Below, piece by piece: positions 8,819-29,589 of a stretch of 31,764 nt of DNA. How positions within the stretch are numbered: position 1 is the first letter of the stretch; each line of letters starts with the position of its first letter. The position numbers and the translations under genes were made by a program. A model generated the notes under the pieces. It was not told the DNA's origin. It saw only the letters and a program-made list of their open reading frames with translations, and did not search any database. The stretch lies in the IMG/VR virus record IMGVR_UViG_3300030329_001866, positions 1-31,764 of that record; one strand, 5' to 3'. The DNA comes from a virus.

Positions 8819-11800
8819 GCAGACACACCAAGACCCTGACCCGATCCTTTGCCGGCGGTGAGATGTCGCCCGAGATGTTCGGTCGCATGGACGACGCGAA
8901 GTTCCAGGCCGGCGCGGCGACCCTGCTCAACATGATCCCGCGCCCTACGGGGTCAGCAGCTCGCAGGCCAGGGACGCAGCTAGTCAGAGAGATCCGCGAC
9001 AGCACCAAGACCGCGAAGCTGTTCCCGTTCGTGTTCAGCCCTACGCAGTCCTACGCAATCGAAGCGAGCAGGGCGACCGTGGATTCCCTGGAGGGTGGAT
9101 ACTTCCGGTTCCATTCAAACGGCGGGACGCTCCTCTACTCCGCGCCTGACAGGTGGATCGGTAAGCAGAGGGTCCACCCTTATCCGGCTCATCCTGTGAG
9201 CTGCACATCTGCAGCCCCGATGGTGGTCACTCTTGCCGATCACGGCTTGTCAAGCGGAGACGTGGTGAAGTTTGTCGGGGGGACGCCGCCGGGAGGCTTC
9301 AGCTTGCTTACTACATACTATGTGATCCTGGTGAGCAGCTCCCAATTCCAGCTCGCAGCGACTTCGGGAGGAGGGGGCATAACCTCTACCACCACCGGAT
9401 TCGAGCCTGTGTTGCACTGTTGGCCTAGATTCAAGGGGGCCAGCAACTTCAAGTCAGACAGCCACGGCTTCAAGACAGGTGACCCTGTCGTTCTGACGAT
9501 GTGGCCGGAGGATGCTGGTCCTCAAGTGGACTTCACCAAGACCACATTCCAGGTGTCAAGCGGGAACCCGAGCCTAGCAAAGTCGGGGTTCGGGCAGCAG
9601 GTACTGTTCAGCCCAGACGCAGGAGCGACACTTCCATCGGGGATCGAAGAAGGGCGGGTCTACTGGACAAAGTCTTACGAGGTTTTTCCTGATGTTGGCT
9701 GGACGATCAGCGAGTCTTTCGGTGGTCCCCAGCATACTATTGGGACAGGGTCTTCTGGCATTATCAGGATCGCTTCCATGCCACCGAGGACTGGTGGGGA
9801 AGGATCCTACATCGGGTGCAACGAGGTCTACTACGTTGTCCGTCAGAGCGCGAACCTGATCAAGCTGGCTTACTCTAAATCTGAAGCGGAGAAGGGCGAG
9901 TCGTTCACGTTCGATCTCAACGGAACTGGCGAGCGCCACATTCATCGTGTCTATGAGCCGGGTGAGAATGTCAGCTATGTAGATGGCGGCGTTCGGAACT
10001 ACGTCTGCCGGAAGAGCACCTGGAGGTCTCCGGTTGACAGTGAGTCGGTGCTGGTCACCGAGAAGACGCACGACCAGGACGGGGCGCGTGTCCCTGGTGA
10101 TCGGGCCTCCTTGTTCGAGGGGGACTACTGGCGGGAGCTTCCTGGCAGGTCCACCGGGTCGCTATTCCCTGTTGTCGCTACGACCGATGGTGGGCATCTC
10201 CTTCTCACTGCAACGGACCAGAACATTCAGACCAATCAAGCGGTCTCCTTTGTGAGGGGGCAGATCCCTACGCTGACCGCTGGCTCCGTCGCTCTCGATG
10301 ATCCCGTTTACTTTGCGAGAGATGTGAGCGCGAACACGTTCAAGATCGCGTTGACTGCCGGTGGAGCAGCCATCGCGGGCATAGACGCGGCGGGGACACA
10401 ACCTGGGAACCTGGCGATGCAAGCCTGCGTCACCTTCGACACCTCGACTCACAAGATCGGGTGGGTGGCTCACGGACTCAGTAACGGCGACACGGTGGTG
10501 TTCAGTCAGTCGGTGGAGAGGCCGAGCGGTTCTGTGATGCAAAGCCCTCTGGTCTTCGACACTACCTACTACGTCCGAGAAAAGGACACGAATGACTTCC
10601 GCGTGTCGGCAACGGCTTCTGGTCCTCTGATCGACCTGACAGCAACGACTGCTGGTGTGCGGGTGACTGCGTCGGGGGACACGATCTATGAGGTTCCTCA
10701 CGACTACAGCGCGGATGAGATCGACAAGATGTCAACCACGCAGAGCAACGACATTATGACGTTCGCGAGTGGTGACCATCCGGTGTCTGAGCTTCGCCGT
10801 CTCGCGACCACCAAGTGGGAACTCGCGGATGTCAAGTTCCAGGCCGGTGCGTCAGTACCTGGCACTCTCTATGAGTCTTCGATCGTCCCTGGGGAACAGG
10901 TCAGGATCACAGAGCTTGCGACGGACGGATCCTTTGGATCCTATTTTGTCGTTGGTGACAACAGCCACTTCCGGCACAGCTTCAGTCTTGGCGACCCTGT
11001 GTATGTGTCGGGTCTCGGAGACAATCCGGCGTATGCGCCCACAGGAGACGGCCCCCTTGCGGATGGGTTCTACGTCATTGCCCACCCAACTCAGGACGCG
11101 AATCAGCGAGCTGCTCGGAAGATCTTCCTGAGCAAGAGCGACACGAATGATCGCGTGACTCATGGCGGGGACCAGTCCACTTTGACGGTCAGCTCTACAT
11201 ATCCAAACGCTCGCATTCGCTACGGATCTCTGGGGGAGGACATCACTCAGACCTACGTGGTCACCGCGATCGACAGCAACAACGAGGAGTCTCTGCCTAC
11301 TGATTCCCTGACCGTCACCAACAACCTCCTGGTGTCGGGCGCGTCGAACACAATCGGGTGGGGAGCATCATCCTCTGCCGTCAGGTATCGGGTCTACAAG
11401 CAGCTCAGTGGTCTCTATGGCCTGATTGGCGAGACTGACGAACTCACCTTCAAGGATGACAACATCGGCCCAGACCTAGCGGTCTCCCCGCCTATAGATG
11501 ACCCAGCACTTCGGAAGGAGTCGCGAGTCACGTTCAATGCGACAAGCGATGTTGTTACCTGGACAGGTCACGGTCTCCCGGCCAAAACCCCGGTTGTGTT
11601 TTACGGCAGCGACCAGATGCCGTCTGTGGAAAACGGCAAGACCTACTATGTGATCAACCCCTCAGAGAATGGGTTCCAGATCACCGCCGACATCGACAGT
11701 GACAGCGCCCTGGATATCGTCGGGACAGACACAGGACTGCACCTGGCGGTCGCTGGCAACTTCCCATCAGCCACTACATATTTCGAGGGGCGCAGGATAT

Positions 11801-12987
11801 TTGGAGGCAGCAAGAACCTGCCCCAAGACATCTGGATGACGGCGAGCGGTACCGAGGCAGATATGTCCTACTCGGTGCCGACAGTGGACAGCGACAGGAT
11901 CTACTTCCGCATTGCATCCCGTGAGGGGAGCGCGGTGCGACACCTCCTGCCGCTGTCGCAGTTGGTGCTGTTGAGCGACTCAACCGAGTACCGCCTGACG
12001 CCGGCAAACGACGATGTCCTGACCCCGTCATCGATCTCGGTCAGGCCGCAGAGCTTCGTGGGCGCGGGATACTCTCGGCCCTCCCTGGTCAACAACACGG
12101 TGGTGTTCTCTGCTGCTCGGGGCGGTCATGTGCGGGAGCTGGGCTACAACGCAGACGTGCTCGGATACCTGACGGGAGACCTGAGCGTTCGAGCTGCTCA
12201 CCTGTTTGACGGCTACACGATCAAGGATCAGACATACTCCAAGGCTCCCCTGCCCCTTGTCTGGTGCGTGTCCAGCTCGGGTAAGCTGCTCGGCCTGACA
12301 TACATCCCAGAGGAGCAGGTCGGAGCTTGGCACCAGCACACCACAACGGACGGCACCTTTGAGTCGGTTGCCTCGGTTCCAGAGGGTGACGAGGATGCTG
12401 TCTATGTCATCGTGAATCGGACGGTGGCTTCAGGAACAAAGCGATACGTCGAGAGACTTTCAGATGTCTATCGCGGCGGGACATCCAACATCAGCAACGC
12501 CAACTTCGTGGACTTCGGGATGACCTACAGCGGCGCGTCCACAACGACGGTGTCCGGCTTGGATCACCTGGAGGGCAAGACTGTCAGCTATCTGGCTGAC
12601 GGTGTAGCCGGCACAGGCACGGTCACGAGTGGCACACTAACACTGGCGAAGGCGGCATCGACCGTCCAGGTTGGCCTGGGATACACCTCTCGAATTCAGA
12701 CGCTACCGATGACCATGATGAACGTCGATGCGTTCGGGACAGGCCGAACCAAGAACGTCAACAAGGTGTGGGTCAGGATATTCGAGAGCGGGGCATTCAA
12801 GGCTGGCCCGTCAGCCAGCAACCTGCGGGCGTCTCTGTCTCCCAGTTCGGGGTCGCTCGCCACCGACCTGGTGCAGGTCGCTCTCCCGGCATCGTGGGAT
12901 GATGACGGTCAAATTGTGATTCAGCAGGAAGATCCCCTCCCGCTTACTGTTGTGGGGCTGACCATCGAAGTCGCCTCTGGAGGATAG
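8815..12987 (+). CDS. tail tubular protein B-like nozzle protein, expanded with HGL modules
   Basis: The 1390-aa product begins with the hallmark of podovirus nozzle/tail tubular B-type proteins: SFAGGEMSPEMFGRMD, FQAGAATLLNMIPRPTG and ARRPGTQL. It ends with the matching C-terminal region, including GGHVRELGYN, LTGDLSVRAAHLF, GKLLGLTYIPEEQVGAWHQH and TKRYVERLSD. T7 gp12 is about 790 aa; the excess here is mostly internal and made of repeated beta modules with an HGL-x-x-G-D turn and a YYV strand. A fibronectin-like segment (TYVVTAIDSNNEESLPT) precedes the last module. The protein should form the tail tube below the adaptor encoded just upstream. The internal modules may decorate the tail or bind host glycans (inference). 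Confidence 0.85.
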   Translation: MSRHTKTLTRSFAGGEMSPEMFGRMDDAKFQAGAATLLNMIPRPTGSAARRPGTQLVREIRDSTKTAKLFPFVFSPTQSYAIEASRATVDSLEGGYFRFHSNGGTLLYSAPDRWIGKQRVHPYPAHPVSCTSAAPMVVTLADHGLSSGDVVKFVGGTPPGGFSLLTTYYVILVSSSQFQLAATSGGGGITSTTTGFEPVLHCWPRFKGASNFKSDSHGFKTGDPVVLTMWPEDAGPQVDFTKTTFQVSSGNPSLAKSGFGQQVLFSPDAGATLPSGIEEGRVYWTKSYEVFPDVGWTISESFGGPQHTIGTGSSGIIRIASMPPRTGGEGSYIGCNEVYYVVRQSANLIKLAYSKSEAEKGESFTFDLNGTGERHIHRVYEPGENVSYVDGGVRNYVCRKSTWRSPVDSESVLVTEKTHDQDGARVPGDRASLFEGDYWRELPGRSTGSLFPVVATTDGGHLLLTATDQNIQTNQAVSFVRGQIPTLTAGSVALDDPVYFARDVSANTFKIALTAGGAAIAGIDAAGTQPGNLAMQACVTFDTSTHKIGWVAHGLSNGDTVVFSQSVERPSGSVMQSPLVFDTTYYVREKDTNDFRVSATASGPLIDLTATTAGVRVTASGDTIYEVPHDYSADEIDKMSTTQSNDIMTFASGDHPVSELRRLATTKWELADVKFQAGASVPGTLYESSIVPGEQVRITELATDGSFGSYFVVGDNSHFRHSFSLGDPVYVSGLGDNPAYAPTGDGPLADGFYVIAHPTQDANQRAARKIFLSKSDTNDRVTHGGDQSTLTVSSTYPNARIRYGSLGEDITQTYVVTAIDSNNEESLPTDSLTVTNNLLVSGASNTIGWGASSSAVRYRVYKQLSGLYGLIGETDELTFKDDNIGPDLAVSPPIDDPALRKESRVTFNATSDVVTWTGHGLPAKTPVVFYGSDQMPSVENGKTYYVINPSENGFQITADIDSDSALDIVGTDTGLHLAVAGNFPSATTYFEGRRIFGGSKNLPQDIWMTASGTEADMSYSVPTVDSDRIYFRIASREGSAVRHLLPLSQLVLLSDSTEYRLTPANDDVLTPSSISVRPQSFVGAGYSRPSLVNNTVVFSAARGGHVRELGYNADVLGYLTGDLSVRAAHLFDGYTIKDQTYSKAPLPLVWCVSSSGKLLGLTYIPEEQVGAWHQHTTTDGTFESVASVPEGDEDAVYVIVNRTVASGTKRYVERLSDVYRGGTSNISNANFVDFGMTYSGASTTTVSGLDHLEGKTVSYLADGVAGTGTVTSGTLTLAKAASTVQVGLGYTSRIQTLPMTMMNVDAFGTGRTKNVNKVWVRIFESGAFKAGPSASNLRASLSPSSGSLATDLVQVALPASWDDDGQIVIQQEDPLPLTVVGLTIEVASGG
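9180..11745 (+). repeat. array of HGL beta modules within nozzle protein
   Basis: At least three clear copies (turns HGLSSGDVV near 9240, HGLSNGDTVVF near 10470, HGLPAKTPVVF near 11570) share the plan strand, HGL turn, strand, YYV strand, and F-x-I/L/V-x-A strand. More divergent copies carry HGFKTGDPVV near 9465, NQAVSFVRG with VYFARDVSANTFKIA near 10240-10350, and FSLGDPVYVSG near 10985. Copies are unevenly spaced and interrupted by other sequence. Confidence 0.6.
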
Positions 12988-12989
12988 CT

Positions 12990-13670
12990 ATGACAGGATT
13001 CATGGGGACAGGTCCCCTTCTTGCCAGCACACACATGGGGAGCCTGCCGTCTGGAAACACAGGCAGCAGCGGATACTCCGGTCTCGCCAACGCCAACAGC
13101 CTCGCGATGGGTATGCAGGTCGCGGGAGTTTTGACCTCTGCGATCGGGGCGTTCTACTCGATCAAGAGTGCCCAGTACCAGGCGAAGTCTCAGGCCATGA
13201 ACCTGGAGTTCCAGGCCACCATGGCCGACATGAATGCGCGAGCTGCTGAGAATGACGCGCAGAACATACTGCGTGCAGGTCAGCAACAGGCCGGCCAGGT
13301 TGGCTTGCAATACCGACAGCTCAAGTCTGCGACCAGGGCGCGACGGGGAGGCGCGGGGATCCAGAGCGGCGTCGGTTCGGCGGCAGAGATTGATGCGTCG
13401 ATCGACTACGCCAAGGAGACCGACATCATCTCGATCAACATGAACACCGTCCGAGCTGCAAAGGGGAGGAGGATGCAGGGGGTCGGGATGCAAACCCAGG
13501 CCAGCATGGGTCGCCTGTCAGCTTCTAACATGCTGGCGTCGGCCAGGTCTATGAACCCTGGTCTCGCCGGGTTCACCAGTCTCCTCGGTGGCGCGACGGG
13601 TGTCGCGAGCACCTGGGCGCAGTCACGACGTGACGAACAGCGATACAGATATCAGCGGGGTCTCTCATAA
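12990..13670 (+). CDS. internal virion / DNA-ejection protein (T7 gp14-like)
   Basis: The 226-aa product has an N-terminal Gly/Ser-rich stretch, then a hydrophobic segment (AMGMQVAGVLTSAIGAFYSI). A long Ala/Gln-rich helix follows (QYQAKSQAMNLEFQA to AAENDAQNI). The RARRGGAGIQSGVGSAAEI motif comes next and is typical of small ejection proteins encoded after the tail tube genes. Such proteins leave the virion first and help build the conduit through the cell envelope. A short AGGA ribosome site precedes the ATG, and the stop overlaps the next ATG by one base (TAATG). The call is from gene order and the characteristic motif. Confidence 0.75.
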   Translation: MTGFMGTGPLLASTHMGSLPSGNTGSSGYSGLANANSLAMGMQVAGVLTSAIGAFYSIKSAQYQAKSQAMNLEFQATMADMNARAAENDAQNILRAGQQQAGQVGLQYRQLKSATRARRGGAGIQSGVGSAAEIDASIDYAKETDIISINMNTVRAAKGRRMQGVGMQTQASMGRLSASNMLASARSMNPGLAGFTSLLGGATGVASTWAQSRRDEQRYRYQRGLS

Positions 13671-16450
13671 TGCCACAAGTTCCACTTCCACGAGTAGGTC
13701 TCTCTGCCGGCCAGACCCCAGCCTATGGGGCTCCAGCGGTCACTCCGCAGAAGGACTTCTCTGGTCAGCAAATCCAAGAGACCGGCGCGGCGCTACAGAA
13801 GGCTGGGCATGTCGCAATGCAGATCGTGGAAATGGAGCGCAACGAGCAAGACCTCGCCTCGACCAAGAAGGCGTACGCCCGCTTCTCCGAGCGCGTCTCT
13901 CAGCTCGTGGATGGAGACTATCTCCTCAAGCAGGGCGAAGCTGCTGTAGGCGGCAGCAGCGGTGACGATGTCACTGAAGGCGTCAAGCTGTCGAAGACCC
14001 TGGACGAAGAGCTTCGGAAGTTCGCAGATGAGCTGCCGACAGAGGTCTCGAAGGGCATGTTCAGCGAGGCCGGCAACAAGCTGCTCACCTCTGCCAGGAT
14101 GCGTATAAACACTCACCAGTCGAAGCAGCGCAAGGTGTGGCTGGCCGGTGAGACAAGCGCAATGATGAAGTCGGCGGCCCAGGCTTCGATCGACGCCTAC
14201 ATGGCTGGTGAGGAGGATGACCTCATGGCTGATCTTATGGGGGCTACCCCTGGGAAGTCCGCCTGGAAGATGCAGCTTGACACCGCTGTCGATCAGGCCA
14301 GAGAGCTTGCAAGACTAAATGGCCTGGGACCAGAGGCGACGAACCAGGCGATCGAAGGGGTCAAAACGGGTGTCTACAGTGGCATTGTTACTGAATTGCT
14401 CGATGAAGAGCGGACATCAGACGCTAAGGAATTCCTGAAGGATCACGCGAAAGATATGGAGCAAGGCTCTGTTCGGGATCTGAGAAAGCTCGTCAGAACT
14501 GCCTCAGTAAGTGATGACGCTTTGAGGTTGGCGATGAGCCTCAAAGACACTCACGATGTCGATGGCGACAAGAGGCTCGACAGCACCGAGCTGAATGCGA
14601 TCGGGGACGAGCTAAATAAAAGATTCCTCGCGGGAGGCATTGACGCAAAGATGCGTAGCAATGTGCTCGGGTTTCTCAAGGAGGCACTTGGTAGGCACAA
14701 GGTGGAGGCGGCTGACGAGGCAGCTAAAATAAAAGGTGCGACTAAGTCGGCAGGAGAAGCCGGAGATTTTGTGGCGGTCTTCGGGGTTGGCCCAGAACAA
14801 AAGACAACCAGGGGCAATCTTGAAAAGACAGAACGCAACTTGCATGACAAGCTGGACTCGGGAGTCAAGACCGGTCGGATAACCGAGGACGAGGCCGATT
14901 TTGCAAAGACCATGTTTGGAGCTGTCCGCTGGGCTATTGGCAAATCCGTAAGCATGTCCGACGAGATCGCGGACGGGATGAAAGCGGGGAAGAGACCTGC
15001 CCATCGGCATACATCAGAGTGGCTAGGACAGGCAAGGTCTAGGGTGATACGGGAGGGGATGAAATATTCAAAAGATCCGGCAGAACAGAAAGCCTTCATC
15101 GATGCTGGGCTGGCTGCTGCGGAGAAAGCCTACGACCGTGCAGTAAAGGAAGAGGATCTACGGATATCTGAGATCCGTGATGAGATGGAGCAGTATGCAG
15201 AACTGAGCAGGGGCCGCATCACCAGCCCCGACGCAGCCCCGCGTGAGATGCAGTTGCGATGGATAGCTGCCGGGATCATGGACGATGCTCGTGACATATT
15301 CAAAGCGACCAACGAGCAATACAGCAACCCGGAGAAGGAGACCCTGTTCTATAGAGCGGTCGAAGAGGGCACGCTGAGATACATGCCCAATGCTCAATTC
15401 AGAAGTATGTTGGCCGGTCTTGGTAAAGATTTACAGGCAACCGCCAAAGAGATGCGGACGCTTGCTGTAGCCAACACACCGTTGCAGGGCGGTCCTGAAG
15501 CCCAGCTCCTAAGAGTAGCCCAGAAGCATCAATGGCTAACGGGTGAGGGAAGCAAGGGAGAAATAATCCCAGGCCAGAAAAACATAGTGAATAGCTTCTT
15601 GTGGGAGAAGAGCTGGTATCGGTCGTTCTTGGCAGAGTGGAATGAGCGAAAGAATGCTTTCCAAGAAAAGCTACCAAAAGGGGTGAAGATCTCTGATCAG
15701 GAGAGTCTTGATATCGGGATGAAAATGCTCATCGACTTTGGTGGTCACACGGCAATGGATCATTCAAAGGTCTATCCAAGAGCGGGGGCTGTCACAACAA
15801 GGGACTACAGGGGATGGAATGACGATCAGGAAATGCACGACTGGCATCTGAAAAGACTAACCGATGAGGAACGGGCGAAGCTCCTTGGTCACGAAGCAGA
15901 GGAGGAAGGTTCAAGAGGTCGGGTGGTGAAGATGTCTACAGGAGACTATGTTGCTGTCGGGCCACAGCTTCGTTTGCCAGAAGGAACACACCCAGAGGAT
16001 GCGGCCAAATGGAACTACCAAAGTCGAGCTGACGCTGTGCAGCTTCTTTACGCCGCGCAAAACAAGACATATTCCCAGCGGTTTACGGATTCCCCGATTC
16101 CAAGAGGCGTGTCTCTCGCTGACGTTCCACGAATTGAAGAGAAGGATCTCAGAAGGATCTTGCACCTTACAGATAAGAGAGAGGATCTACCTGACTGGGT
16201 GCGTAAGTCCTACCCAGATAGAAAGGGCAAGGAAATCATGCCTACCCAGAGCGAGCAAAAAGAACTCCTAGACCTGTTTATAAAATACAAGGTGGATCAC
16301 CTTGAGCTAAGTGTCGAAGAGCTATGGCAACGGCAAGAAGTTCTCGAAGAATCAAGGAAGGCAGGTAGAGATGAAGAAGAGGTGCAGCGCCGCGTCAAGA
16401 GGCGTGGATACTCTCCAGGCGGTATGGGCATAGGCCGAGGAGGATCTTAG
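13670..16450 (+). CDS. large internal virion protein (T7 gp15-like) with EF-hand-like loop
   Basis: The 926-aa, mainly helical, highly charged protein sits in the gp15 position between a gp14-like protein and a giant ejection protein. Its N-terminus (PQVPLPRVGLSAGQTP) and the following AYARFSERV helix recall podovirus internal core proteins. Residues 296-307 read DVDGDKRLDSTE, an exact fit to the 12-residue EF-hand calcium loop (Asp1, Asp3, Asp5, Leu8, Glu12). From about 14550 to the end, base composition turns visibly richer in A and in AGA/AGG/ATA codons than flanking genes, suggesting a recombinant segment. It probably forms part of the ejection conduit. The stop shares one base with the next GTG. 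Confidence 0.7.
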   Translation: MPQVPLPRVGLSAGQTPAYGAPAVTPQKDFSGQQIQETGAALQKAGHVAMQIVEMERNEQDLASTKKAYARFSERVSQLVDGDYLLKQGEAAVGGSSGDDVTEGVKLSKTLDEELRKFADELPTEVSKGMFSEAGNKLLTSARMRINTHQSKQRKVWLAGETSAMMKSAAQASIDAYMAGEEDDLMADLMGATPGKSAWKMQLDTAVDQARELARLNGLGPEATNQAIEGVKTGVYSGIVTELLDEERTSDAKEFLKDHAKDMEQGSVRDLRKLVRTASVSDDALRLAMSLKDTHDVDGDKRLDSTELNAIGDELNKRFLAGGIDAKMRSNVLGFLKEALGRHKVEAADEAAKIKGATKSAGEAGDFVAVFGVGPEQKTTRGNLEKTERNLHDKLDSGVKTGRITEDEADFAKTMFGAVRWAIGKSVSMSDEIADGMKAGKRPAHRHTSEWLGQARSRVIREGMKYSKDPAEQKAFIDAGLAAAEKAYDRAVKEEDLRISEIRDEMEQYAELSRGRITSPDAAPREMQLRWIAAGIMDDARDIFKATNEQYSNPEKETLFYRAVEEGTLRYMPNAQFRSMLAGLGKDLQATAKEMRTLAVANTPLQGGPEAQLLRVAQKHQWLTGEGSKGEIIPGQKNIVNSFLWEKSWYRSFLAEWNERKNAFQEKLPKGVKISDQESLDIGMKMLIDFGGHTAMDHSKVYPRAGAVTTRDYRGWNDDQEMHDWHLKRLTDEERAKLLGHEAEEEGSRGRVVKMSTGDYVAVGPQLRLPEGTHPEDAAKWNYQSRADAVQLLYAAQNKTYSQRFTDSPIPRGVSLADVPRIEEKDLRRILHLTDKREDLPDWVRKSYPDRKGKEIMPTQSEQKELLDLFIKYKVDHLELSVEELWQRQEVLEESRKAGRDEEEVQRRVKRRGYSPGGMGIGRGGS

Positions 16451-19400
16451 TGACCAACTTCTCTGATGACATCAACCTGAAGGCTCCTTCTAACAGTGAC
16501 CCGACACCGGGCGTCTTTGCTCCTCCTGATGAGGGATTGGTAGTTCAGGGAAAGGGGGTCCAAGGGAAGGGCGGTCAAAGACCTGGCCCATCTCAGCCTG
16601 ATGACCTTTTGACACCGAGACACCAGTGGGCGCGGGACAGGCACCAGGCGCAAATAAAGACACACAATCTCCACGCTGCTCAGAAGTTTGAAGACGCTCG
16701 GACCTACTCTCCGAGGTTTGACGCTCGGGTCGCAAGGATTGCAAAAGAGTCGGGAATCTCCATGGACCTTATTGAGTCTGGAGACAACGTCGAGTTCATG
16801 GAGATGATGCTGGACCGCCGGAAGTTCTCGGCGCTTCTTGACGCGAACTACGACGAGCGTCTGGCCCAGGTAATGCTCGACCCTAACTTCTTGAAGTTAG
16901 CGCATGACGATTACGAGAACCTATTTGGAATTTCAAAGACTGCTGCTCACTGGCGTGCTGGACGGCTCGGTCACGAGATGAGCCTGATCGGGTTCAGAAT
17001 GATGCGCGGCGAAGAATTAGAGGGAGACTATGCCCGCCTGAAAGAGATCCGAAAAATGATGGCCTCTCTGCCAAGGGATAGCAGCGGTGAGGGGTTGCTT
17101 GGTCTGTGGTATGGCGGTGTGCGGATGCTTGCCGGAACGGCTGAGATCATGGGGTCTGCCGCCCTAGCTGGTGTAACGGCTGGCTCTATCGCAACCCCTG
17201 CTGCTGGCGTTTGGGCTTCGGCTTTGACCATGGGCACAGGCACATCGATGGTTGAAGGTGGGGCTCAATACCTAGACCTGGTAGAGATGGGTGTTGATCC
17301 AGAGATAGCCTTTTCAGAGGCACTATCGACTGGAGCCATAAGCGGTGTGCTTGAAGCGGGTGGCTTTGGGTTTGGTGCTGGTGCTGTAATCGGCAAGGTG
17401 GCGACAGGGTTCACGGCCCGAAGAGCTGCCGCCCAGACCGGCAAGAGGTTGATACCCAACACCACGGCTTTCGGTGCCCTGGGGACGGCTGCTGGTGGCT
17501 GGGCTAGGGGCATGGCTGGTGAGCAGTTCGCTGAGTTATCGCAGACGATTGTCCAGCACTGGTCTACGCAAGAAGCTATTGAAAAATCGGCTGATCGAGA
17601 AGGTCTGGACCTGGAAGGTCAGGTGCCACTTGCAGAGCAGTTGGAGGAGACGTTCTGGGAGACATTCCGAGGAGCGTTCATTCTTAGTTCTTTCGCCCCT
17701 GCTATTCAGCTGACTAGTGATCTTGGAAGGGCTCGAAACGCAGGGATCCTGAGAGACCGGCTCACCAACATGGGCGGTAAAATAGAGAAGTCCAAAGTCC
17801 GCGAGCGTGAGCCCGATGCCCTTGTGGATTTCCTCGAACAGGCTTTGGAGGACACGGATCAGAAGACCCTGTTCTTTGATGTCGAGAAGTTCAAGGAGCA
17901 GATGGACGAGGCTGGTCTCACAGAAGAGCAGCTAGAGAATCGAGCACCAGAGATCGCGCAACGATTGAAGGACGCCGAGAAGACCGGCGAGCTGGAGATT
18001 CCGACAAGTGAGTTTGGCGCGAAGTTCTTTGCCGAAGGGTTTGGCAAGAACATGATTCCCCATGCCCGCACCGAAGCTGGTGGAATGTCATTTTCTGAAA
18101 TTCAGGAGATGCTCGGTGAGGATGTGGATGTAGCCGAGCTGGCCGAAGAAGGCGAGCGCCTTTTGGAGGAGGCAGAGATCGAGGTGAACTCTGTCGTCGA
18201 ACAGGTCGCGGAGATCAGGAAGCGGGTCTATGATCAGAGCATTGCTGCCGGGTTCGATCCTGAGAAGGCGAGGGTCATATCTCATACACAAGGCAACATC
18301 CTGACCGCGTTGGCCGAGCGGGCCAACATGACACCGGCCCAGTTCGACAAGCTGTTCCCGGTGAAGATCCGCCTGAAGGATGAGGCTGCGCCGGCAGGGG
18401 AGGCGCTGGGTGCGCCTGTTGATCCAGAATACGAAGCAGCAGAACGTCGCCTACGCGAAGCATCGTTTGCCTACACCAAAGAAAAGAATAGGTCTAGGCC
18501 CGTATCTTCCAAGCAAACTCCGAAGGGCGAGGCGAAAAGAGCGGAGCACGCAGAGCGTCTCAAGACACTGCTAGAAGAACGCGAGGCGGCGCGTGCGGAT
18601 CTGGAGACGCAGTTCCCAGACTATAAGGAGCGCCGGGTGACGGCCCGTGATGCATTCCACAGAGAGACGATGGCTCGGCAAGCGCAAGAGGAAGCTGCGT
18701 TCTGGGAGGGTTGGAAGGAGCAACAAGCCGCCAAGCCCGAGATGGCTCAGGTTCGTCGCAAACTACAGTCAGGTCTCCGAGGCTTGGGACTCAGGATGGA
18801 GCGATCCGAGGGCGGCTCGAATTACTACAGCGGCACGCTACCAAACGGGGAGCGCATCACTGTTCGCGTAAGTGATCACGAAGTTCCGATGACCCCGGCT
18901 CGTGAAGCTGCACGCGAAGAGGGCCGATTCACCTGGGCCGAAGATGGTGGTCAGCAGTTCATTATCTCCCCAGAGAGCACAGCGGAAGAGGTTGCTTCCT
19001 TCATCGATCAACTCACCCAGCAACAGCTCGACCAACTCAACTTCGAGCAGCCCGCCGACCTTGAGTTCAACGAAGCCGACTTCCGTCCCGAGGTTGTGAG
19101 CTGGGCCAAGGATCGCTTCGGTGATCGTGTAGCCCCGAACGGCAAGCCTGCGTGGCAGAACTTCGTCGCCTGGTTCGGTGACTCACAGGTGGTGGATGAG
19201 AAGGGTGCGCCCCAAACTCTGTACCGAGGTTTGAGATTCCCACCAGAGGGTGGGGTTATGGAGACCCGTGAGGGTCGGGCAACGCTTTCTCTAACCGATA
19301 ACCCTGACGTTGCGAACGTCTACAGCAAGACAAAAACAAATTTCTTGCGGCCTGCTGAGTCTAGGCCGGGATCGATGATGGTCGCAGCCCATGTGAAAAT

Positions 19401-22400
19401 GGAAAAACCTCTGGACCTTAGCAGGGGCTCTCAGACATCGCGACTTATGAAAGGTCGAGACGTACTGACCGACTACAGAATTTCGATGGTCGAAGTCTTT
19501 GACGCAGTGACAGAGGGGTCCTTAGACCTCTCAGATAACGCCCACATCGGCATGATCATTGACTCCATGGATGATATGAGTGGCATGGAGTTTACCGGCC
19601 AGGGCGAGACGGATTGGGGGTTAGCCAAGACATCTGATGGCTATGACATAGACTCATGGGTTCAGCTACAAGACACCATCCAAGAGTTATTTGAAGATGG
19701 TGAGTTTGAAGAAATAGCGGAGATCCTTGCCGAGGTGACTGTTGATCAGTTCTTCCTGGCTGATACGGAATCGTTTATTGACGCCATCGTTGATGGATTT
19801 GGGTGGGACGGGGTAATCATCAACGACCTCTTTTCGGGGGGTGCTCCGTACTACGAAGGGTCAAAAGAGTTGGGTCTGGCACCAGATGATGAACCCACTG
19901 CGAAGGTGTGGCGACCCATCGACCAGCGACAAATCAAGTCCATAACCAACATAGGAACCTATGATCCAGAATCTCAAAGTATGTTGAAGCAGCCAGCTCT
20001 CGACCAAGTGTCGGAGCCAGATTCCAAGCCGCCGAAGGGCGACCTAAAGCCTGGGGGTAAGAATCTAAAGGATGGCAACGCGCTTGGCTTCTGGCCGAGG
20101 CTGCGTGTCAAGGCACCCACCCGGCGCAAACTCCCGAAGAAGGGAGCGATTCTCACCGGCACCAACAACAAGAACGCACAGCGTCAGATAGACGCTATTG
20201 ACAGCCTGCTAGAGAATCATCCTAACGCGCACGAGAGCGCGTCTGCGTGGGCAAATATGTTGGCTGAAGCATTCGGTTCTCAGGAGGTTCCGGTCCCTCC
20301 GTATGCCTTCATCCGCGATCTTGTCGAGGATCGAATGAAAGAGAAGCTCGACACCCTAAGTGAGGGCCAACTGGAAGATGCAGACCGCGGGTTTGAGAAT
20401 GCGCGTGAGTTCCGCCGCGCCTACATCGCTGGTGAAATCGATGTGGCTACTACCGGCAAGCTGTTTCTTTGGTCGTTCCTGTCGCGTGGTGTCAGTCCTT
20501 ACACACAAGAGTCGCTGTTCATTGACTCCTTCGACGGAGCTGCTACGTGGATCGATAAAGCTGCTCGCGGCGAGTTTACCGAGGCGGACTTCGACGCTTA
20601 CACAGAGTGGGCGAAGAGCGTTTCTCCAAAGGGTAGTGGTCAACCGGGAGCAAGTTCGACGCACAACCTGAATGCGTTTGGAAGATCGTTCCTGTTCAAG
20701 ATGGGGCAAAGGCGACCCGATGGTCGAACGCATTTGCAGTATCTGCACGACATGATGGCCGACCCAGACATGACCGGGCAACAGATCCGCCGCGAGTTTC
20801 AGACGTTCGGTGAGGGCGTTGGGATCGACAACAAGGTTGTGTCGTTCACGTTGCTGGTCGCTGGATTCGATGATGTTATGGTGCTTGACCGCGTCCAGGT
20901 TCGGCAACTATGGGATGATGGCCGGTTCAATGGATACAATCTTTACGACGGGATCAATGAGACCCGTGTCGTGAAGGGCAAAGAGAAGCGAGTCAAAATC
21001 ACGGGTTCGTCGCTGACCGAGCTAACAATGGGTGCTCGCGGCATCCTGATCTACGAGGCCATTGAGCGGGCGATCTCGGCTAAGGTCGAAGGGATTTATG
21101 CCGAGCTTGGCCGTCCCCAGGATGCGAGCATCGGTCGATATCATTGGGAATCATGGGTCGCGGACAGTCAGCAGGAAGCTAGTCATGGCACCCTTGAAGC
21201 GGTCCTAAAGGATGCCAAAGGACAGGATCACGCTATTGCTCAGGTCACCGCCAAGGAAGGCGAATACGGTGCCTACGAATACGGTGCCCTATATGGCCGT
21301 GACAAGGACGGAACACCCTACTTCCTTTACGAGGTTCCAGACGGTACACTTCACCGGTTCACTGTTCCTCAATTCCGAGCCTTCCTCGGGACGATAAAGA
21401 AGCCAGGCACCGGGGTGGTGCCGAAGGGCTTCAAGGTCCGACAGGCTGGCAATCAACCTTGGTATTTTAGCGATGGCATCAACAGAGAAAGACTCGAAGA
21501 AGTCGCCCACGAATTTGACGAAGGGCGACGAACTCCTGATGCGTCTCTTAGGGAGGAAGGCACCACGGATGCCCGTGGTGTTGGAGCCGAACGAGGACCA
21601 GCCCTCGACCAACCAGCCACCGCCCCCCTCCAGTTCTTCTCAGCCCTAGCTCGGGGAATCGCCGGTCACGACACCAAGGTTGCCACCGCTTCTGGCTGGA
21701 AGCAGGCGCTCAAGAGTCTCCTCAAGAAGGGCGAGGTCAAGAAGGACGAAATCTTCTGGACCGGCCTGGAGGAATGGCTTGACCTGCAAGAGGGCAAGAT
21801 CACCGAGGAACAGATCGCGGAGTATCTGGAAGGGAGCGGGGTGAAGGTCGAGGGGGGAGCGCCGCTGTTCGCGCCAGGTGAGTCACGCGGTCAGTATGTC
21901 CCCAGCAGCATGGACATCCTCCTCTCCAAGGATGCTGATGTCAGCACCGTCCTGCATGAATTGAACCACCACTACGTCCACTCCATGCTGAGTGTCGCGA
22001 ACATGCAGGACGCCCCGAAGGAGATCCTCGAAGATGTTGACACCATGATGCGATGGTGGAAGGTCGCGGGCGACACAGCGGAAGAAAGGCTCGCGAATTG
22101 GAATGCGATGAGCTTCGCGGAGCAAGCTCCGCACCATGAAGCCCTCGCCTACAATTACGAGCTGTGGTTGTTTACTGGCACAGCCCCGACTGTGGGGATT
22201 CGGAAGCTCTTCGAGAGGATTCGGACCTTTATGATCGGCGTTTACACGTCGCTGGTCGAGGCACAACGCAAGCTATCCGGTGCATACAGATCTCGATTCG
22301 GTCGCGATCTCCCCAGCATGAACCCCGAGATCCGAGATCTCTTCGAGCGAATGGTCGCGGGTGAGCAGGGGGCGAGGAACGCGGAGGCTGTGAGGTCGAT

Positions 22401-25400
22401 GGCCCCGATCTTCGAGAGCCTGGAGTCTTGGAAGGAGTTCGGCGGCACCGAGTCAACGTGGAAGGAATACCAGGAGCGGATCCGCGAGTGGCGTCAGAAG
22501 CTCCAGACGGACCTGAGCGTTGACAGTGCGCGAGCGATGGGCTGGCAGAAGAATGCCGAGGGCCGCGTTCTCAGGGAGATCGTCGCGGAGAACAAGGAGA
22601 AGCGCAAAGCGACAGAGAAGGAGATCACGGCAGAGGTCGAGCGGGAGCCCATCTATCAAGTGCTGGCTCTGTTCAAGAAAGACAAGACCGGCCTGGACCG
22701 AGACTCTGTCCTCGCGATGCTCGGTGATCTCGACGAGGACGCCATCGCAGACATCAAGAAGAAGCTGGGCCGAAACCTCAGAGCACGCAAGAAGCTGAAG
22801 GGTGGGCAGGTGGAGATCCAGGGACTCATGCCCGACTTCGTCGCGGAGTTCTTCGGATTCGAGACAGGCGAAGAGTTGGTCCGAACCTTGATCGCAGCTC
22901 GACCTATCAAGGAAGAGATCGACATCCGAACCACCGCTCTGATGGAAGCCAGGTATGGAAATCTGAACAGCGAGGAGGCTATCCAGCACAGGATCGAGCA
23001 GGCGATACACAACGAAGCGAGGGCGAGATTTGTTGCAGCCGAGCTGAAGTTCTTGGAGGGGTCAACCAGACCTGCGCGACTCAAGGTGGGAGCAGCTCGC
23101 GAAGCTGCCAGGAAGATCCTGGCCGGCACGCGGATCGGAGACATCGACCCGCGCAAGTATGCACAGCTTGAAGCTCGGGCTGCTCGCGCAGCCAAGCAGG
23201 CGATGAAGGCTGTCAAGCCGCGCAAGGCGCACACCACCAAGGAAGGCGTCGAGAGAAAAGAGATCGAGGGGCGAGACCCGGATCCGCAGGCCGCGATCAC
23301 CGCGAAGGAGCAAGAACTTCTATACGGTCAGCTCACCAAGCTCGCCCTGGAGGTGAAGGATGAGGTCAGCAAAGCACAGGACACGAAGAAGTTCACGCGG
23401 TCAGACAGCGATCTCCGCAAGACTCGCGATGTCAACATCGTGCATGTGGCGCGTGCGGTTCTTGCTCAGTATGGGCTGCTTCCGCCTGGGGCCGCTGGTC
23501 GCACAGCCGACTTCATCGGCAGGCTGCGTGAATACAGCCCCGAGATGTTCGCGGTGTATGAGGAGCAGCTCGCAAAGGCGCAGGTCGCCGGGGAGACTGC
23601 CGGCTACGACTACCGCAACATGACCCTCGATGAGTTTCGTGCGATGACCAGCATGGTCAACACGCTGTGGTTCCGCAGTAAGCGCGACAAAGAGATCGAG
23701 TCGGAGGGCAAGAGAGAGAAGCTCGCGGAGATCGTCGCCACCCTCGCTGACATCCTCGAAGGTAGGCGGCGTGAAAAGATCCCAGGCCAGGAGAGCGGCC
23801 TGGGTGACAAGCACAGGGTTAGAGTCAGCGTGCTTCAGAGCGCCGCCAGCCTGGTCAAGCTGGAACACTACCTGCGATACCTGGACGGCGGCAAGCAGGG
23901 AGAGTTTACACACTACCTCTACAACGAGGTGAAGGAAGCGATCAACAACTACCGGGCAGACGCATCGATCTACACGAAGAAGTTCGTGGAGATGCTTGAG
24001 GATCTCCGGAAGGATGGCTTGCTCGATGACCAAGCGATTCCATCGCACGAGCTTGGCTATGTATTTGGCGGGCCGGAGTCTGATGTGGGTGGACTGACCG
24101 AACTGATCGGAGCCTTGCTGCACATGGGCAACGCTGGCAACAAGTCGAAGTTCCTGGTCGGCGGTCGCGGAGACGGCAAGTCGTGGGCGTTCGTCAACGA
24201 AGACGGAGACATTGACTACACCAAGTGGAATGCGTTCATCGAAAGAATGATCAACGAGGGTAGGCTAAATAAGAAGCACTTTGACTTTGTGCAGAATGTT
24301 TGGAACCTCATGGAGGAGATCAAACCGAAGCTCCAGGCCGCGCACATCAAGCTCATGGGCCACACCTTCAAGGAGGTCCAAGCTGAAGCGTTCGAGATAA
24401 CCTTCAAGGACGGCACGACTGTAACCTATCGAGGTGGCTACGTCCCGGCGACACCTGACACCCAGGTGATGCGCGAGGTCGGCACCAGGACTCCTGTCGA
24501 GACAACGCTAGAAACATTAGAGGAGGGGTTCAAGAGTGCGCTGCCCAAGGTTCCTGACGGCATGACCAAGGAGCGGGCTGACGAATACCGCGAGAACCCT
24601 CTGTCGATGCATCTCGACATGATCCTCGCGCACATCGACAAGTCCCTGCGATACGCGCATGTCCAGCCAGCGGCGAAGGACATGGAGAGGATCATCACGA
24701 ATGAGCGGTTCAAGAAGGCGATGCACGCGGTCGATCCAGATGCTATCGACCAGCTCTTCCTGCCATTCCTAGATCGGGCGGTCACGCAATCGCTCTACAA
24801 GGAGGGGCACCCCCTGACCCAGATGTTCTTCAAACACTTCCGCCGCATCGCGGGTGTGAAGATCATGGCGGGCAACGTGGTGAACACTCTGCAACAGTTC
24901 ACCGGCTTGATCAACGCCACGCTGTATGTGAAGCCTCACCATGTGAGGAATGGCCTGTGGCAGATGCTCACGAATCGTCGAGAGCTGATGGACCTGATCA
25001 CCTCAAAGTCCAAGTTCATGGATGACAGGCTTAGGAATCAGATGTTCGAGCTGTCTGATGAGATGCGTGAGATCGTCCTCCACAAGCGTGGCCTGAAGGG
25101 CAAGGGGAAGGCGCTGCAACGCAAGGGTCTTCGCTGGGGCTACATCTTGCAATCCACCGCCCAGAACATGGTGGACATCTCGGTGTGGAAGGGGGCGTTC
25201 GAGCAGGTCATGGAGGCCCCGCAGCAGGGCGAGAGCATGGCCGAACAGGAAGCTCGTGCAGTAATCGAGGCCGACCAAGCGGTGCGCCTATCGCAGGGCT
25301 CCTTCTCTCCCGAGGATGTCGCCGGCTATGAGAAGGGCACAGCAGCCGGTCGAGCTTGGACTCAGTTCACCAGCTACTTCAACACTGTGCTCAACCAGGT

Positions 25401-25947
25401 GGTGTTCGCCCAGGAGGGAGACAAAATCAAGACCGCGCTGATCGCCTTCTCCGCACCGATGATCGTGGCGCAGGCTATCGCCATGACCTTGTGGGGACAG
25501 TGGGACGACGAAGATGATGACGGCCATGTGGACACCGCTTGGGATCTGCTTGGTGGATCACAGTGGCGCGGAGCCTTCGCGATGTTTCCAGCCTTTGGGC
25601 CAGCGGCGGTCCAAGCCATCGATGCGCTATTCGAGGGGCGACAGTTCGGAGGCGACCGGGTCGCGGCACCACCAGCAACTGCGGCGCTCACCCGGTCGGT
25701 GCTCGGCACAGCCTACGCCCTCAACAGGGCCTGGGAAGGGGACAAAGATCTCAAGAGTTCGGACGTGCGCGACGTGATGAGCTTGATCATCATCAGCTTC
25801 CCATACGGTGGCGCTGCGCTGGCACCGCTTGGCAAGTCGATTGGCTACGGCACGCAGATGGGCTTGGGGGAGGTCGAGCCGACCGGGCCATTCGACATGC
25901 TCCGAGGCTTTGCATCCGGCAGAGCCAGCGAGGGAACCAGGCAGTAG
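16450..25947 (+). CDS. giant polyvalent internal virion protein with ART-, HhH-GPD- and zincin-like domains
   Basis: The 3165-aa product starts at GTG 16450 behind a GAGGAGG site and is the last ejection gene, in the position of T7 gp16. Visible parts are: Gly/Ala-rich hydrophobic stretches (about 224-345), suited to membrane passage; a large-polyvalent-protein type region (about 455-640); and an ADP-ribosyltransferase-like domain (about 885-1180, FVAWFGDS at 905, YRG at 925-927, QIKSI at 1161). Next come a possible HhH-GPD glycosylase-like domain (about 1335-1570, GVG 1456-1458, Lys1462, VLDRVQVR with Asp1480), a polyvalent linker (about 1725-1810), and a zincin-like domain (HELNH 1836-1840, Glu1897). 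The rest is long charged helices, a hydrophobic segment near 2995-3013 and an acidic DDEDDDGH patch. I saw no lysozyme motif. It is probably delivered into the host cell with the DNA, where its enzyme-like domains could act on host defences or DNA. Confidence 0.75.
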   Translation: MTNFSDDINLKAPSNSDPTPGVFAPPDEGLVVQGKGVQGKGGQRPGPSQPDDLLTPRHQWARDRHQAQIKTHNLHAAQKFEDARTYSPRFDARVARIAKESGISMDLIESGDNVEFMEMMLDRRKFSALLDANYDERLAQVMLDPNFLKLAHDDYENLFGISKTAAHWRAGRLGHEMSLIGFRMMRGEELEGDYARLKEIRKMMASLPRDSSGEGLLGLWYGGVRMLAGTAEIMGSAALAGVTAGSIATPAAGVWASALTMGTGTSMVEGGAQYLDLVEMGVDPEIAFSEALSTGAISGVLEAGGFGFGAGAVIGKVATGFTARRAAAQTGKRLIPNTTAFGALGTAAGGWARGMAGEQFAELSQTIVQHWSTQEAIEKSADREGLDLEGQVPLAEQLEETFWETFRGAFILSSFAPAIQLTSDLGRARNAGILRDRLTNMGGKIEKSKVREREPDALVDFLEQALEDTDQKTLFFDVEKFKEQMDEAGLTEEQLENRAPEIAQRLKDAEKTGELEIPTSEFGAKFFAEGFGKNMIPHARTEAGGMSFSEIQEMLGEDVDVAELAEEGERLLEEAEIEVNSVVEQVAEIRKRVYDQSIAAGFDPEKARVISHTQGNILTALAERANMTPAQFDKLFPVKIRLKDEAAPAGEALGAPVDPEYEAAERRLREASFAYTKEKNRSRPVSSKQTPKGEAKRAEHAERLKTLLEEREAARADLETQFPDYKERRVTARDAFHRETMARQAQEEAAFWEGWKEQQAAKPEMAQVRRKLQSGLRGLGLRMERSEGGSNYYSGTLPNGERITVRVSDHEVPMTPAREAAREEGRFTWAEDGGQQFIISPESTAEEVASFIDQLTQQQLDQLNFEQPADLEFNEADFRPEVVSWAKDRFGDRVAPNGKPAWQNFVAWFGDSQVVDEKGAPQTLYRGLRFPPEGGVMETREGRATLSLTDNPDVANVYSKTKTNFLRPAESRPGSMMVAAHVKMEKPLDLSRGSQTSRLMKGRDVLTDYRISMVEVFDAVTEGSLDLSDNAHIGMIIDSMDDMSGMEFTGQGETDWGLAKTSDGYDIDSWVQLQDTIQELFEDGEFEEIAEILAEVTVDQFFLADTESFIDAIVDGFGWDGVIINDLFSGGAPYYEGSKELGLAPDDEPTAKVWRPIDQRQIKSITNIGTYDPESQSMLKQPALDQVSEPDSKPPKGDLKPGGKNLKDGNALGFWPRLRVKAPTRRKLPKKGAILTGTNNKNAQRQIDAIDSLLENHPNAHESASAWANMLAEAFGSQEVPVPPYAFIRDLVEDRMKEKLDTLSEGQLEDADRGFENAREFRRAYIAGEIDVATTGKLFLWSFLSRGVSPYTQESLFIDSFDGAATWIDKAARGEFTEADFDAYTEWAKSVSPKGSGQPGASSTHNLNAFGRSFLFKMGQRRPDGRTHLQYLHDMMADPDMTGQQIRREFQTFGEGVGIDNKVVSFTLLVAGFDDVMVLDRVQVRQLWDDGRFNGYNLYDGINETRVVKGKEKRVKITGSSLTELTMGARGILIYEAIERAISAKVEGIYAELGRPQDASIGRYHWESWVADSQQEASHGTLEAVLKDAKGQDHAIAQVTAKEGEYGAYEYGALYGRDKDGTPYFLYEVPDGTLHRFTVPQFRAFLGTIKKPGTGVVPKGFKVRQAGNQPWYFSDGINRERLEEVAHEFDEGRRTPDASLREEGTTDARGVGAERGPALDQPATAPLQFFSALARGIAGHDTKVATASGWKQALKSLLKKGEVKKDEIFWTGLEEWLDLQEGKITEEQIAEYLEGSGVKVEGGAPLFAPGESRGQYVPSSMDILLSKDADVSTVLHELNHHYVHSMLSVANMQDAPKEILEDVDTMMRWWKVAGDTAEERLANWNAMSFAEQAPHHEALAYNYELWLFTGTAPTVGIRKLFERIRTFMIGVYTSLVEAQRKLSGAYRSRFGRDLPSMNPEIRDLFERMVAGEQGARNAEAVRSMAPIFESLESWKEFGGTESTWKEYQERIREWRQKLQTDLSVDSARAMGWQKNAEGRVLREIVAENKEKRKATEKEITAEVEREPIYQVLALFKKDKTGLDRDSVLAMLGDLDEDAIADIKKKLGRNLRARKKLKGGQVEIQGLMPDFVAEFFGFETGEELVRTLIAARPIKEEIDIRTTALMEARYGNLNSEEAIQHRIEQAIHNEARARFVAAELKFLEGSTRPARLKVGAAREAARKILAGTRIGDIDPRKYAQLEARAARAAKQAMKAVKPRKAHTTKEGVERKEIEGRDPDPQAAITAKEQELLYGQLTKLALEVKDEVSKAQDTKKFTRSDSDLRKTRDVNIVHVARAVLAQYGLLPPGAAGRTADFIGRLREYSPEMFAVYEEQLAKAQVAGETAGYDYRNMTLDEFRAMTSMVNTLWFRSKRDKEIESEGKREKLAEIVATLADILEGRRREKIPGQESGLGDKHRVRVSVLQSAASLVKLEHYLRYLDGGKQGEFTHYLYNEVKEAINNYRADASIYTKKFVEMLEDLRKDGLLDDQAIPSHELGYVFGGPESDVGGLTELIGALLHMGNAGNKSKFLVGGRGDGKSWAFVNEDGDIDYTKWNAFIERMINEGRLNKKHFDFVQNVWNLMEEIKPKLQAAHIKLMGHTFKEVQAEAFEITFKDGTTVTYRGGYVPATPDTQVMREVGTRTPVETTLETLEEGFKSALPKVPDGMTKERADEYRENPLSMHLDMILAHIDKSLRYAHVQPAAKDMERIITNERFKKAMHAVDPDAIDQLFLPFLDRAVTQSLYKEGHPLTQMFFKHFRRIAGVKIMAGNVVNTLQQFTGLINATLYVKPHHVRNGLWQMLTNRRELMDLITSKSKFMDDRLRNQMFELSDEMREIVLHKRGLKGKGKALQRKGLRWGYILQSTAQNMVDISVWKGAFEQVMEAPQQGESMAEQEARAVIEADQAVRLSQGSFSPEDVAGYEKGTAAGRAWTQFTSYFNTVLNQVVFAQEGDKIKTALIAFSAPMIVAQAIAMTLWGQWDDEDDDGHVDTAWDLLGGSQWRGAFAMFPAFGPAAVQAIDALFEGRQFGGDRVAAPPATAALTRSVLGTAYALNRAWEGDKDLKSSDVRDVMSLIIISFPYGGAALAPLGKSIGYGTQMGLGEVEPTGPFDMLRGFASGRASEGTRQ

Positions 25948-27948: not shown

Positions 27949-28135
27949 ACACATGCGATCTCACCAACCAAACATTCCTTGCTTGGGTTGCCAGCAGAAC
28001 CCCCCGATGTTCCGGGGAGGCCAGGGCCGCTCAAGCAAATCCATCGAGGGCACTGGAGAGTTCCTCGTTGGACTCATCAACGCAGTCATCTTGTCGATTA
28101 TCCTTTTCGGACTTCTGCTGGTGTGCTGCACCTGA
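27902..28135 (+). CDS. small zinc-ribbon membrane protein
   Basis: I chose ATG 27902 rather than 27953. It has a GAGGAAG ribosome site (27888-27894) seven bases upstream, and it restores a paired zinc ribbon, CPTC at residues 12-15 and CLGC at about 26-29. The 77-aa product then has a polar linker and one C-terminal transmembrane helix (about 54-75, LINAVILSIILFGLLLV) ending CCT. It would place a small zinc ribbon on the inner face of the membrane. It overlaps the preceding acidic gene by 47 bases. I recognise no family. Confidence 0.6.
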   Translation: MIKIPQPPTHRCPTCRHMRSHQPNIPCLGCQQNPPMFRGGQGRSSKSIEGTGEFLVGLINAVILSIILFGLLLVCCT

Positions 28136-28163
28136 CAATCACTCTCCAACAAAAGGAAAAACC

Positions 28164-28949
28164 ATGTTCGATCTATCAACTATCAAGCGCAGCACGCAGC
28201 TGCCTCCCCGCGTCGTGGTCTACGGCGTACCTGGTATCGGCAAGACCACCCTGGCTGCCGACATGCCCAACCCCGTGTTCCTCCCGGTGGAGGACGGCCT
28301 CGGCCAGCTCGATGTCGAGGCATTCCCTCGACCCTCGACCTATGACGAGGTCATCGGTGCGGTCACGTCCTTGATCCAGCAGGATCACAACTACGGCACC
28401 CTGGTGCTGGACTCGCTCGACAAGCTGGAGCCCCTGATCTGGGACCACGTATGCGACACGGTCCCCAGCGACAAGGGTGGCAAGGTCGAGCGGATCGAGG
28501 CGTTCGGCTACGGCAAGGGCTACACTCACGCTCTCACCGAGTGGCGTAGGTTGCTGCGTGGTCTCGACATCCTTCGCGAGCAGAAGGGTATGTCAATCTG
28601 CCTCATCGCACACAGCGCGGTGGTTCGATTCGAGAGCCCCGAGGCTGACCCCTACGAGAGATACCAACTCCGGCTGCACAAGCACGCCGACGCTGCTGTG
28701 TGCGAGTGGGCGGATGCGGTGCTCTTCGCCAACTACAAGGTGACCGTCATCGACGGCGGTGGCAACACGGACAAGAAGCGCGGCGTGGGCAAGGGTGAGC
28801 GGCTAATCCACACCAACGAGCGGCCAGCCTTCAAGGCGAAGAACCGCTACGCTCTACCTGACACTCTACCCCTTTTGTGGAGCGAGATCGCTCCGCTACT
28901 CCAACCCAAAACCAAGGCCAAGCGCAAGGCGAAGGCCGCAGCCAAATAG
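28164..28949 (+). CDS. Sak4-like RecA-fold ATPase (phage recombination)
   Basis: The 261-aa product carries Walker A at residues 21-29 (GVPGIGKTT) and Walker B around Asp83 (TLVLDSLDKLE). A LIAHS strand follows that fits the RecA/Sak4-type ATPases annotated in phages as nucleotide-binding proteins. It ends in a basic KTKAKRKAKAAAK tail. Sak4-type proteins promote single-strand annealing or strand exchange, usually with a DUF669/SSB-like partner, which is exactly the next gene. The start at ATG 28164 has the same 14-base A-rich AAGG leader as the 27012 gene. An upstream in-frame extension overlaps the membrane protein and is rejected. Confidence 0.85.
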   Translation: MFDLSTIKRSTQLPPRVVVYGVPGIGKTTLAADMPNPVFLPVEDGLGQLDVEAFPRPSTYDEVIGAVTSLIQQDHNYGTLVLDSLDKLEPLIWDHVCDTVPSDKGGKVERIEAFGYGKGYTHALTEWRRLLRGLDILREQKGMSICLIAHSAVVRFESPEADPYERYQLRLHKHADAAVCEWADAVLFANYKVTVIDGGGNTDKKRGVGKGERLIHTNERPAFKAKNRYALPDTLPLLWSEIAPLLQPKTKAKRKAKAAAK

Positions 28950-28957
28950 GAAAGAAC

Positions 28958-29449: not shown

Positions 29450-29524
29450 ACACTCGGATGTCACAGGTAGTATAGATGCCGGGGCTTTGACTGCGAGTGA
29501 TTAGCCTCGACCTCTGGCATCCAT

Positions 29525-29572: not shown

Positions 29573-29589
29573 ACCCATACCCCATACCC

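Follow-up and report, generated by a model that had tools for sequence, protein, structure and literature searches.

The stretch of viral DNA analysed here (the window, 31,764 nucleotides) contains a single gene of 3165 aa (16450-25947, + strand), whose product we propose to be an ejection (internal virion) protein, the largest one in a BPP-1-like podovirus, and a scaffold that would hold exchangeable enzyme cargo. The cargo in this case is an ART-type domain together with an OGG-like glycosylase/lyase-type domain and its companion, and we lean, with modest confidence, towards the reading that the protein is a delivery scaffold with an active base-excising cargo. The LPD22, hydrophobic and MID regions, along with the C-terminal helical region and its hydrophobic tail, would serve packaging in the capsid and passage through the envelope with the DNA, as gene order and family suggest. 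The zincin just past the slot would cut the chain and free the cargo before or after entry, and the delivered glycosylase would excise a base ahead of any phage gene expression. Host defences encounter ejected proteins before any other phage product, and an enzyme that removes bases from DNA may be among the earliest to reach the cell interior. A conserved ejected DNA glycosylase would add base excision to the pre-packaged activities of ADP-ribosylation, proteolysis and transcription. The features of the protein and of its immediate neighbours are collected in Table 1.

Table 1. Features of the 3165-aa protein, its start and the two preceding genes, in window coordinates
Feature	Residues	Position (strand)	Basis
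gp14-like internal virion protein gene		12990..13670 (+)	phrog_418, E 9e-14; homologues precede the giant gene in relatives
gp15-position gene	926 aa	13670..16450 (+)	Position; matches neighbours in DC33 and ctQRb9; order conserved
Shine-Dalgarno sequence and start		16437..16452 (+)	GAGGAGG at 16437-16443, GTG at 16450 on the upstream gene's TAG stop; direct sequence reading
LPD22, large polyvalent protein associated domain	77-169	16678..16956 (+)	PF18834, E 2.9e-8, 34.3 bits, cut-off 28.6
Gly/Ala/Ser-rich hydrophobic region	215-430	17092..17739 (+)	KD windows to 1.44; relatives alike in place and composition
MID scaffold region	439-640	17764..18369 (+)	Profile built without the window; position conserved in Bbp10-type relatives
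Cargo slot between MID and zincin		18370..21888 (+)	184-2055 aa in 29 relatives, CV 0.39
ART-PolyVal-like domain	903-1183	19156..19998 (+)	51.9 bits with a profile made from relatives, the window excluded
OGG-like HhH-GPD domain	1225-1545	20122..21084 (+)	Alignment; PDB 3fhf/3knt; AF2 model; Z 15.8 to 3n0u
Catalytic-type residues	K1462, D1480	20833-20835, 20887-20889 (+)	Both in 75/75 sequences
Companion domain	1545-1690	21082..21519 (+)	Always adjoins the glycosylase; first helices complete the Ogg fold
Zincin-like metallopeptidase domain	1814-1960	21889..22329 (+)	H1836, E1837, H1840 at 21955-21969; E1897 at 22138-22140
C-terminal scaffold, mostly helical	1962-2982	22333..25395 (+)	phrog_9880; BPP-1 Bbp10 and others; alignment; model
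Two C-terminal hydrophobic segments	2996-3014, 3109-3127	25435..25830 (+)	KD 1.90, 1.70

An earlier note on this DNA had proposed three enzyme-like regions in the chain, and one of these, the glycosylase-like region, gives a confident fold match. Residues 1225-1700 could be aligned to 24 relatives with 42-78% identity, and the AF2 model of the module (pLDDT 87.4, pTM 0.86) reached a Z of 15.8 in VIA against Thermotoga Ogg (3n0u), with 206 of 208 residues superposed at an rmsd of 3.0 and about 15% identity. Four Ogg structures of the OGG2 type scored 15.0-15.8 over about 205 residues, the next entries stood at 10.2, and Endonuclease III, OGG1, MagIII, MutY and a queuine-salvage enzyme followed at Z of about 7-10. 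Foldseek likewise returned Ogg structures as its top three matches (prob 1.00), and MjaOgg ranked first (E 0.049) when the sequence profile of the module was compared with the PDB. K1462 aligns with the MjaOgg position occupied by Lys in 3fhf and by Gln in the DNA complex 3knt, and both K1462 and D1480, spaced 18 residues apart, are invariant in all 75 distinct sequences. The modelled fold and this Lys/Asp pair strongly favour assignment as a DNA glycosylase, and base excision by a Lys/Asp mechanism is predicted. Only three of 25 module members matched PF22175 (Ogg-HhH), weakly (best E 0.0026), and a direct profile search of the window's copy gave no match; hence we term the domain OGG-like rather than a member of PF22175. 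As in the OGG2-type enzymes (Thermotoga 3n0u, M. jannaschii 3fhf/3knt), the whole domain superposes and the Lys and Asp lie at matching positions; in contrast to them, it is embedded in a giant protein of the virion block and carries additional helices at its N terminus as well as a companion domain past the Ogg2 end. The fold alignment extends to model residue 355, within the companion, which is present in all glycosylase carriers and covaries with the OGG domain in identity (Spearman 0.85). Since the chain runs on beyond the Ogg2 end into an extension with invariant Q, E and H residues, the substrate is not readable from the fold, and the base recognised may differ from 8-oxoG.

A two-pattern scan of IMG/VR recovered 269 confirmed relatives of the module, from which the best 80 were kept. 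By tblastn (E 0.1) the module was absent from 50,697 GenBank phage records and from 72,556 plasmids, and a pattern scan of 84,980 GTDB genomes yielded two confirmed matches. Two uncharacterised proteins of uncultured phages in BFVD also match it. The 269 matches in IMG/VR against none in the GenBank phage records suggest a common activity that is hidden in deposited phage genomes. Full-length carriers fall into 34 clusters, and those without the Bbp10 scaffold have as neighbours a phrog_6651 internal virion protein, a phrog_4287 DNA ejection protein, virion structural proteins (phrog_684, phrog_3287), or terminase and portal genes. This repeated placement beside virion and ejection genes in unrelated proteins is the best support for delivery. 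It is possible, though we would put it somewhat short of even, that several unrelated uncultivated phage lineages deliver a mobile OGG-like module with the virion and excise bases in the first minutes of infection; if so, incoming phages would have in base excision a weapon or counter-defence that had so far gone unrecognised. Other domains were also seen in carriers: a 2175-aa carrier (L104) has an FtsK alpha domain (residues 977-1063, PF17854, 6e-19), one has an inorganic pyrophosphatase and another a ddrB-ParB domain.

The purpose of the base excision admits two readings. An early effector acting on DNA, for example by attack on host or defence-modified DNA, is slightly favoured over genome repair, since effectors (GNAT, PBECR-RNase and ART) occupy the slot in relatives and hosts commonly encode their own 8-oxoG repair. 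Taken by itself, an anti-host or anti-defence role is tentative. Virion-packaged repair, by which the glycosylase would remove 8-oxoguanine-like oxidised bases during entry from the phage's own genome, damaged outside cells, appears somewhat less likely to us: all the closest folds are 8-oxoguanine glycosylases and the module is frequent among environmental viral contigs, but 8-oxoG matters chiefly at replication, so that pre-loading is not obviously needed, and the Ogg2 C-terminal end is not retained. Phage repair glycosylases do exist, such as T4 endonuclease V (cited in PMC7824862), yet the remaining cargos of the slot are non-repair enzymes. A conserved DNA glycosylase among ejected proteins would also mirror the recently found defence glycosylases of bacteria. 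Like Brig1 (PMC11078745), the window enzyme would be a DNA glycosylase in phage-host conflict; Brig1, however, is bacterial and attacks phage DNA, whereas the window enzyme is phage-encoded and probably delivered.

The fold itself raises the question of whether the HhH domain could instead be a base-modifying transferase of the hypermodification type, related to gp46/PUGT, or a DNA-binding remnant for threading DNA. Some phages put HhH-GPD-like folds to such uses, and PUGT (8z2n) is among the fold matches, though far more weakly than Ogg (Z 4.3 against 15.8). Fifty carrier records contain no convincing match to QueC, a marker of the 7-deazaguanine pathway, the single sub-threshold match covering 23 positions, and a Lys and an Asp held invariant in 75 sequences at an 18-residue spacing would be unexpected in a pure DNA-binding remnant. 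We consider both of these improbable and retain the reading of a base-excising glycosylase.

The chain in which the module is embedded belongs to phrog_9880 (Bbp10-type; profile match E 1.8e-261), and its C-terminal part matches 39 GenBank phage records at about 20-35% identity, BPP-1 Bbp10 included. The LPD22 near the N terminus was the sole match in a Pfam search of the protein. Profiles of the individual segments were built from relatives without the window and were then scored on the window and its relatives; for the length statistics, the window was added in new versions of the NTERM, MID, ZIN and CT profiles, so that the following values, from 29 distinct complete relatives with the window among them, are not independent of it. 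The N-terminal part up to and including MID measures 652 aa (CV 0.07) and the part comprising the zincin through CT2 1136 aa (CV 0.05), while the slot separating them varies between 184 aa in Bbp10 and 2055 aa in a Nostoc phage (CV 0.39). Relatives have a tail of 161-196 aa with a hydrophobic segment. The membrane-type segments earlier ascribed to the protein are borne out in part: the clearer hydrophobic ones are the two near the C terminus, whereas the N-terminal stretch (226-318) is Gly/Ala-rich and of moderate hydrophobicity (KD 1.26-1.44). Pairwise identities of the scaffold parts correlate poorly with one another (ZIN-CT 0.30, CT-MID 0.03), suggesting that the giant protein is mosaic throughout, beyond the slot; for this reason we refrain from proposing that cargo was exchanged on a scaffold with a stable tree.

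Across relatives the slot contains ART, GNAT acetyltransferase, PBECR5 RNase, DUF7178 or the glycosylase module, and in the window it contains the ART-PolyVal-like domain, the OGG-like HhH-GPD domain and the small companion. Inspecting this slot in Bbp10-type proteins offers a simple search rule for further injected enzymes. The order ART, glycosylase, zincin had been put forward as perhaps undescribed: we found no description of a DNA glycosylase in polyvalent proteins, but the order, with the companion after the glycosylase, recurs in ten other contigs, all uncultivated and some near-identical (L011/L062, L042, L043, L046, L047, L048, L052, L055, L081 and L085), and is reversed in another (L024/L105), where the glycosylase precedes the ART domain. 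DUF7178 (PF23802; residues 1006-1191 in L004, also in L129-L153) occupies the same place in further Bbp10-type proteins, and none of the loci compared had it alongside the glycosylase. An invariant Lys/Asp pair at a spacing of 18, as in HhH-GPD enzymes, gives it an HhH-like look, but hhalign gave a probability of 0.4% and the PDB search no glycosylase, so that neither confirmed the relation. The longest slot, in a 4017-aa protein of Nostoc phage Nsp-JY18 (L124, 2836-9000), has no Pfam match at E 0.01. Another relative, Limnohabitans phage DC33 (PQ492659.1, L117), bears a taxonomy line of Inoviridae, yet by gene content it is a tailed podovirus of the BPP-1-like kind.

The ART-like region could be linked to its family by way of relatives. 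These match PF18760 (up to 8e-20); the window's copy gave no match in a direct search with PF18760, yet it matches the profile of the relatives that do. The window copy, used by itself as the query, retrieved no ART relatives, and the joint profile drew in ADP-ribosylating toxins from the PDB at E 0.01 and weaker. The catalytic residues of the ART-PolyVal family are given as H-Y-D (PMC5512222), and the corresponding residues in the window are R926, S947 and D1120. The first two positions vary in other members of the family too. We term the domain ART-PolyVal-like, probably a member of the family through its relatives, but with two of the three residues changed catalysis is doubtful, and so, judging by these residues, is ADP-ribosylation by this copy.

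In the zincin-like region, also singled out in the earlier note, the HExxH motif (H1836, E1837, H1840) and E1897 are invariant in 31 of 31 sequences, which supports the proposal. SprT-type zincins were among the top matches of the profile in the PDB (E about 0.1), and a second model (pLDDT about 70-90 in this segment) gave a weak fold match to zincin 4xm7 (Z 5.3, 98 residues, 19% identity). Neither match would suffice by itself, and the assignment is supported by the conservation of the motif. The position of the domain directly after the slot suggests that it probably processes the chain, an idea already proposed for polyvalent proteins (Iyer et al. 2017, PMC5512222).

The view of the protein as a large polyvalent protein, too, is supported: an LPD22 above threshold is combined in one polypeptide with three unrelated enzyme-like domains, ART-like, OGG-like and zincin, the last and the first with matches of their own. 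The polyvalent proteins described in PMC5512222 similarly join ART, a zincin MPTase and LPD domains in a single phage chain in a late virion gene setting, but the main text of that paper has no DNA glycosylase among the domains ('glycosylase' occurs 0 times). In the open-licence literature of PubMed Central we found no paper joining DNA glycosylase, phage and ejection protein, a scope that would not capture an account published in a subscription journal; 'polyvalent protein' together with 'DNA glycosylase' retrieved PMC7824862 alone, where T4 endonuclease V is mentioned in a different context. Polyvalent proteins with ART and MPTase are known, and no DNA glycosylase was found among their domains within the searchable papers. 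BPP-1 Bbp10 (phrog_9880) shares the gene position, N-terminal region, MID, zincin and C-terminal region with the window protein, but has 2052 aa, 184 aa between MID and zincin, and no ART or glycosylase that we could find. The N4-like virion RNA polymerases, as described in PMC5512222, are also giant virion proteins in which an enzyme is followed by a zincin and a C-terminal region; their cargo, however, is an RNA polymerase, and the likeness is one of described architecture only.

The gene setting bears on whether the protein reaches the cell at all. Ahead of the giant gene lie, in order, genes for a protease (phrog_458), the major capsid protein GP7 (PF20911, 2e-113), Bbp16, the tail adaptor, the nozzle, the gp14-like protein (phrog_418) and the gp15-position protein. 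This is the order of the virion block in BPP-1, and relatives likewise have the capsid protein, adaptor, nozzle, gp14, gp15 and giant genes in the same order. The giant gene closes the block after the gp14-like and gp15-position genes, as expected from its earlier description as the last internal virion gene, and by this order its placement in the gp16 position is right, though the PDB sequence search and the fold searches gave no link to T7 gp16. The C-terminal scaffold had no match at all in the PDB sequence search, and fold searches listed general helical arrangements with no clear match, as might be the case were the giant protein structural, an assembly factor or late-expressed and not delivered to the cell. 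We give this little credence in view of the position in the internal virion block, the gp14-like neighbour, the LPD22 and hydrophobic tail, and the recurrence of the module beside ejection or virion genes in unrelated phages.

The gene itself, noted before as one long frame, is well founded. Its GTG start has its G in common with the TAG stop of the preceding gene (a 1-base overlap) and AGGAGG six bases 5' of it, the longest ORF among 30 Markov resamples of the window had 415 codons as against 3165 aa, and GC by codon position shows a strong periodicity along the ORF. The source record is a single linear IMG/VR virus contig of 31.8 kb, for which bases 1-25000 of the window had no megablast match among GenBank phages. 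That the long ORF is a chimera of metagenomic assembly, conceivable for one such contig, is exceedingly improbable and already refuted by relatives, as the scaffold order is the same in proteins of 2052-4017 aa from isolate genomes and independent contigs.

Some neighbouring genes of the virion block are themselves enlarged. The nozzle gene (8815-12987) encodes 1390 aa, where BPP-1-like relatives have about 740, with an insert of roughly 510 aa near residues 107-621 that contains a tail-fibre-like match (phrog_9370). The tail-adaptor domain (phrog_394), free-standing in BPP-1, is fused in the window to about 630 N-terminal residues in an 876-aa protein (6188-8818), the N-terminal part of which has a SASA esterase match (PF03629, 6.9e-6). 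As no fibre gene was identified in the window 3' of the giant gene, receptor or depolymerase functions may have been relocated into the nozzle and adaptor. Further downstream (28068-30519) lies a recombination-type set consisting of an AAA_24 ATPase, a single-strand binding protein-like gene and a Cas4-type exonuclease.
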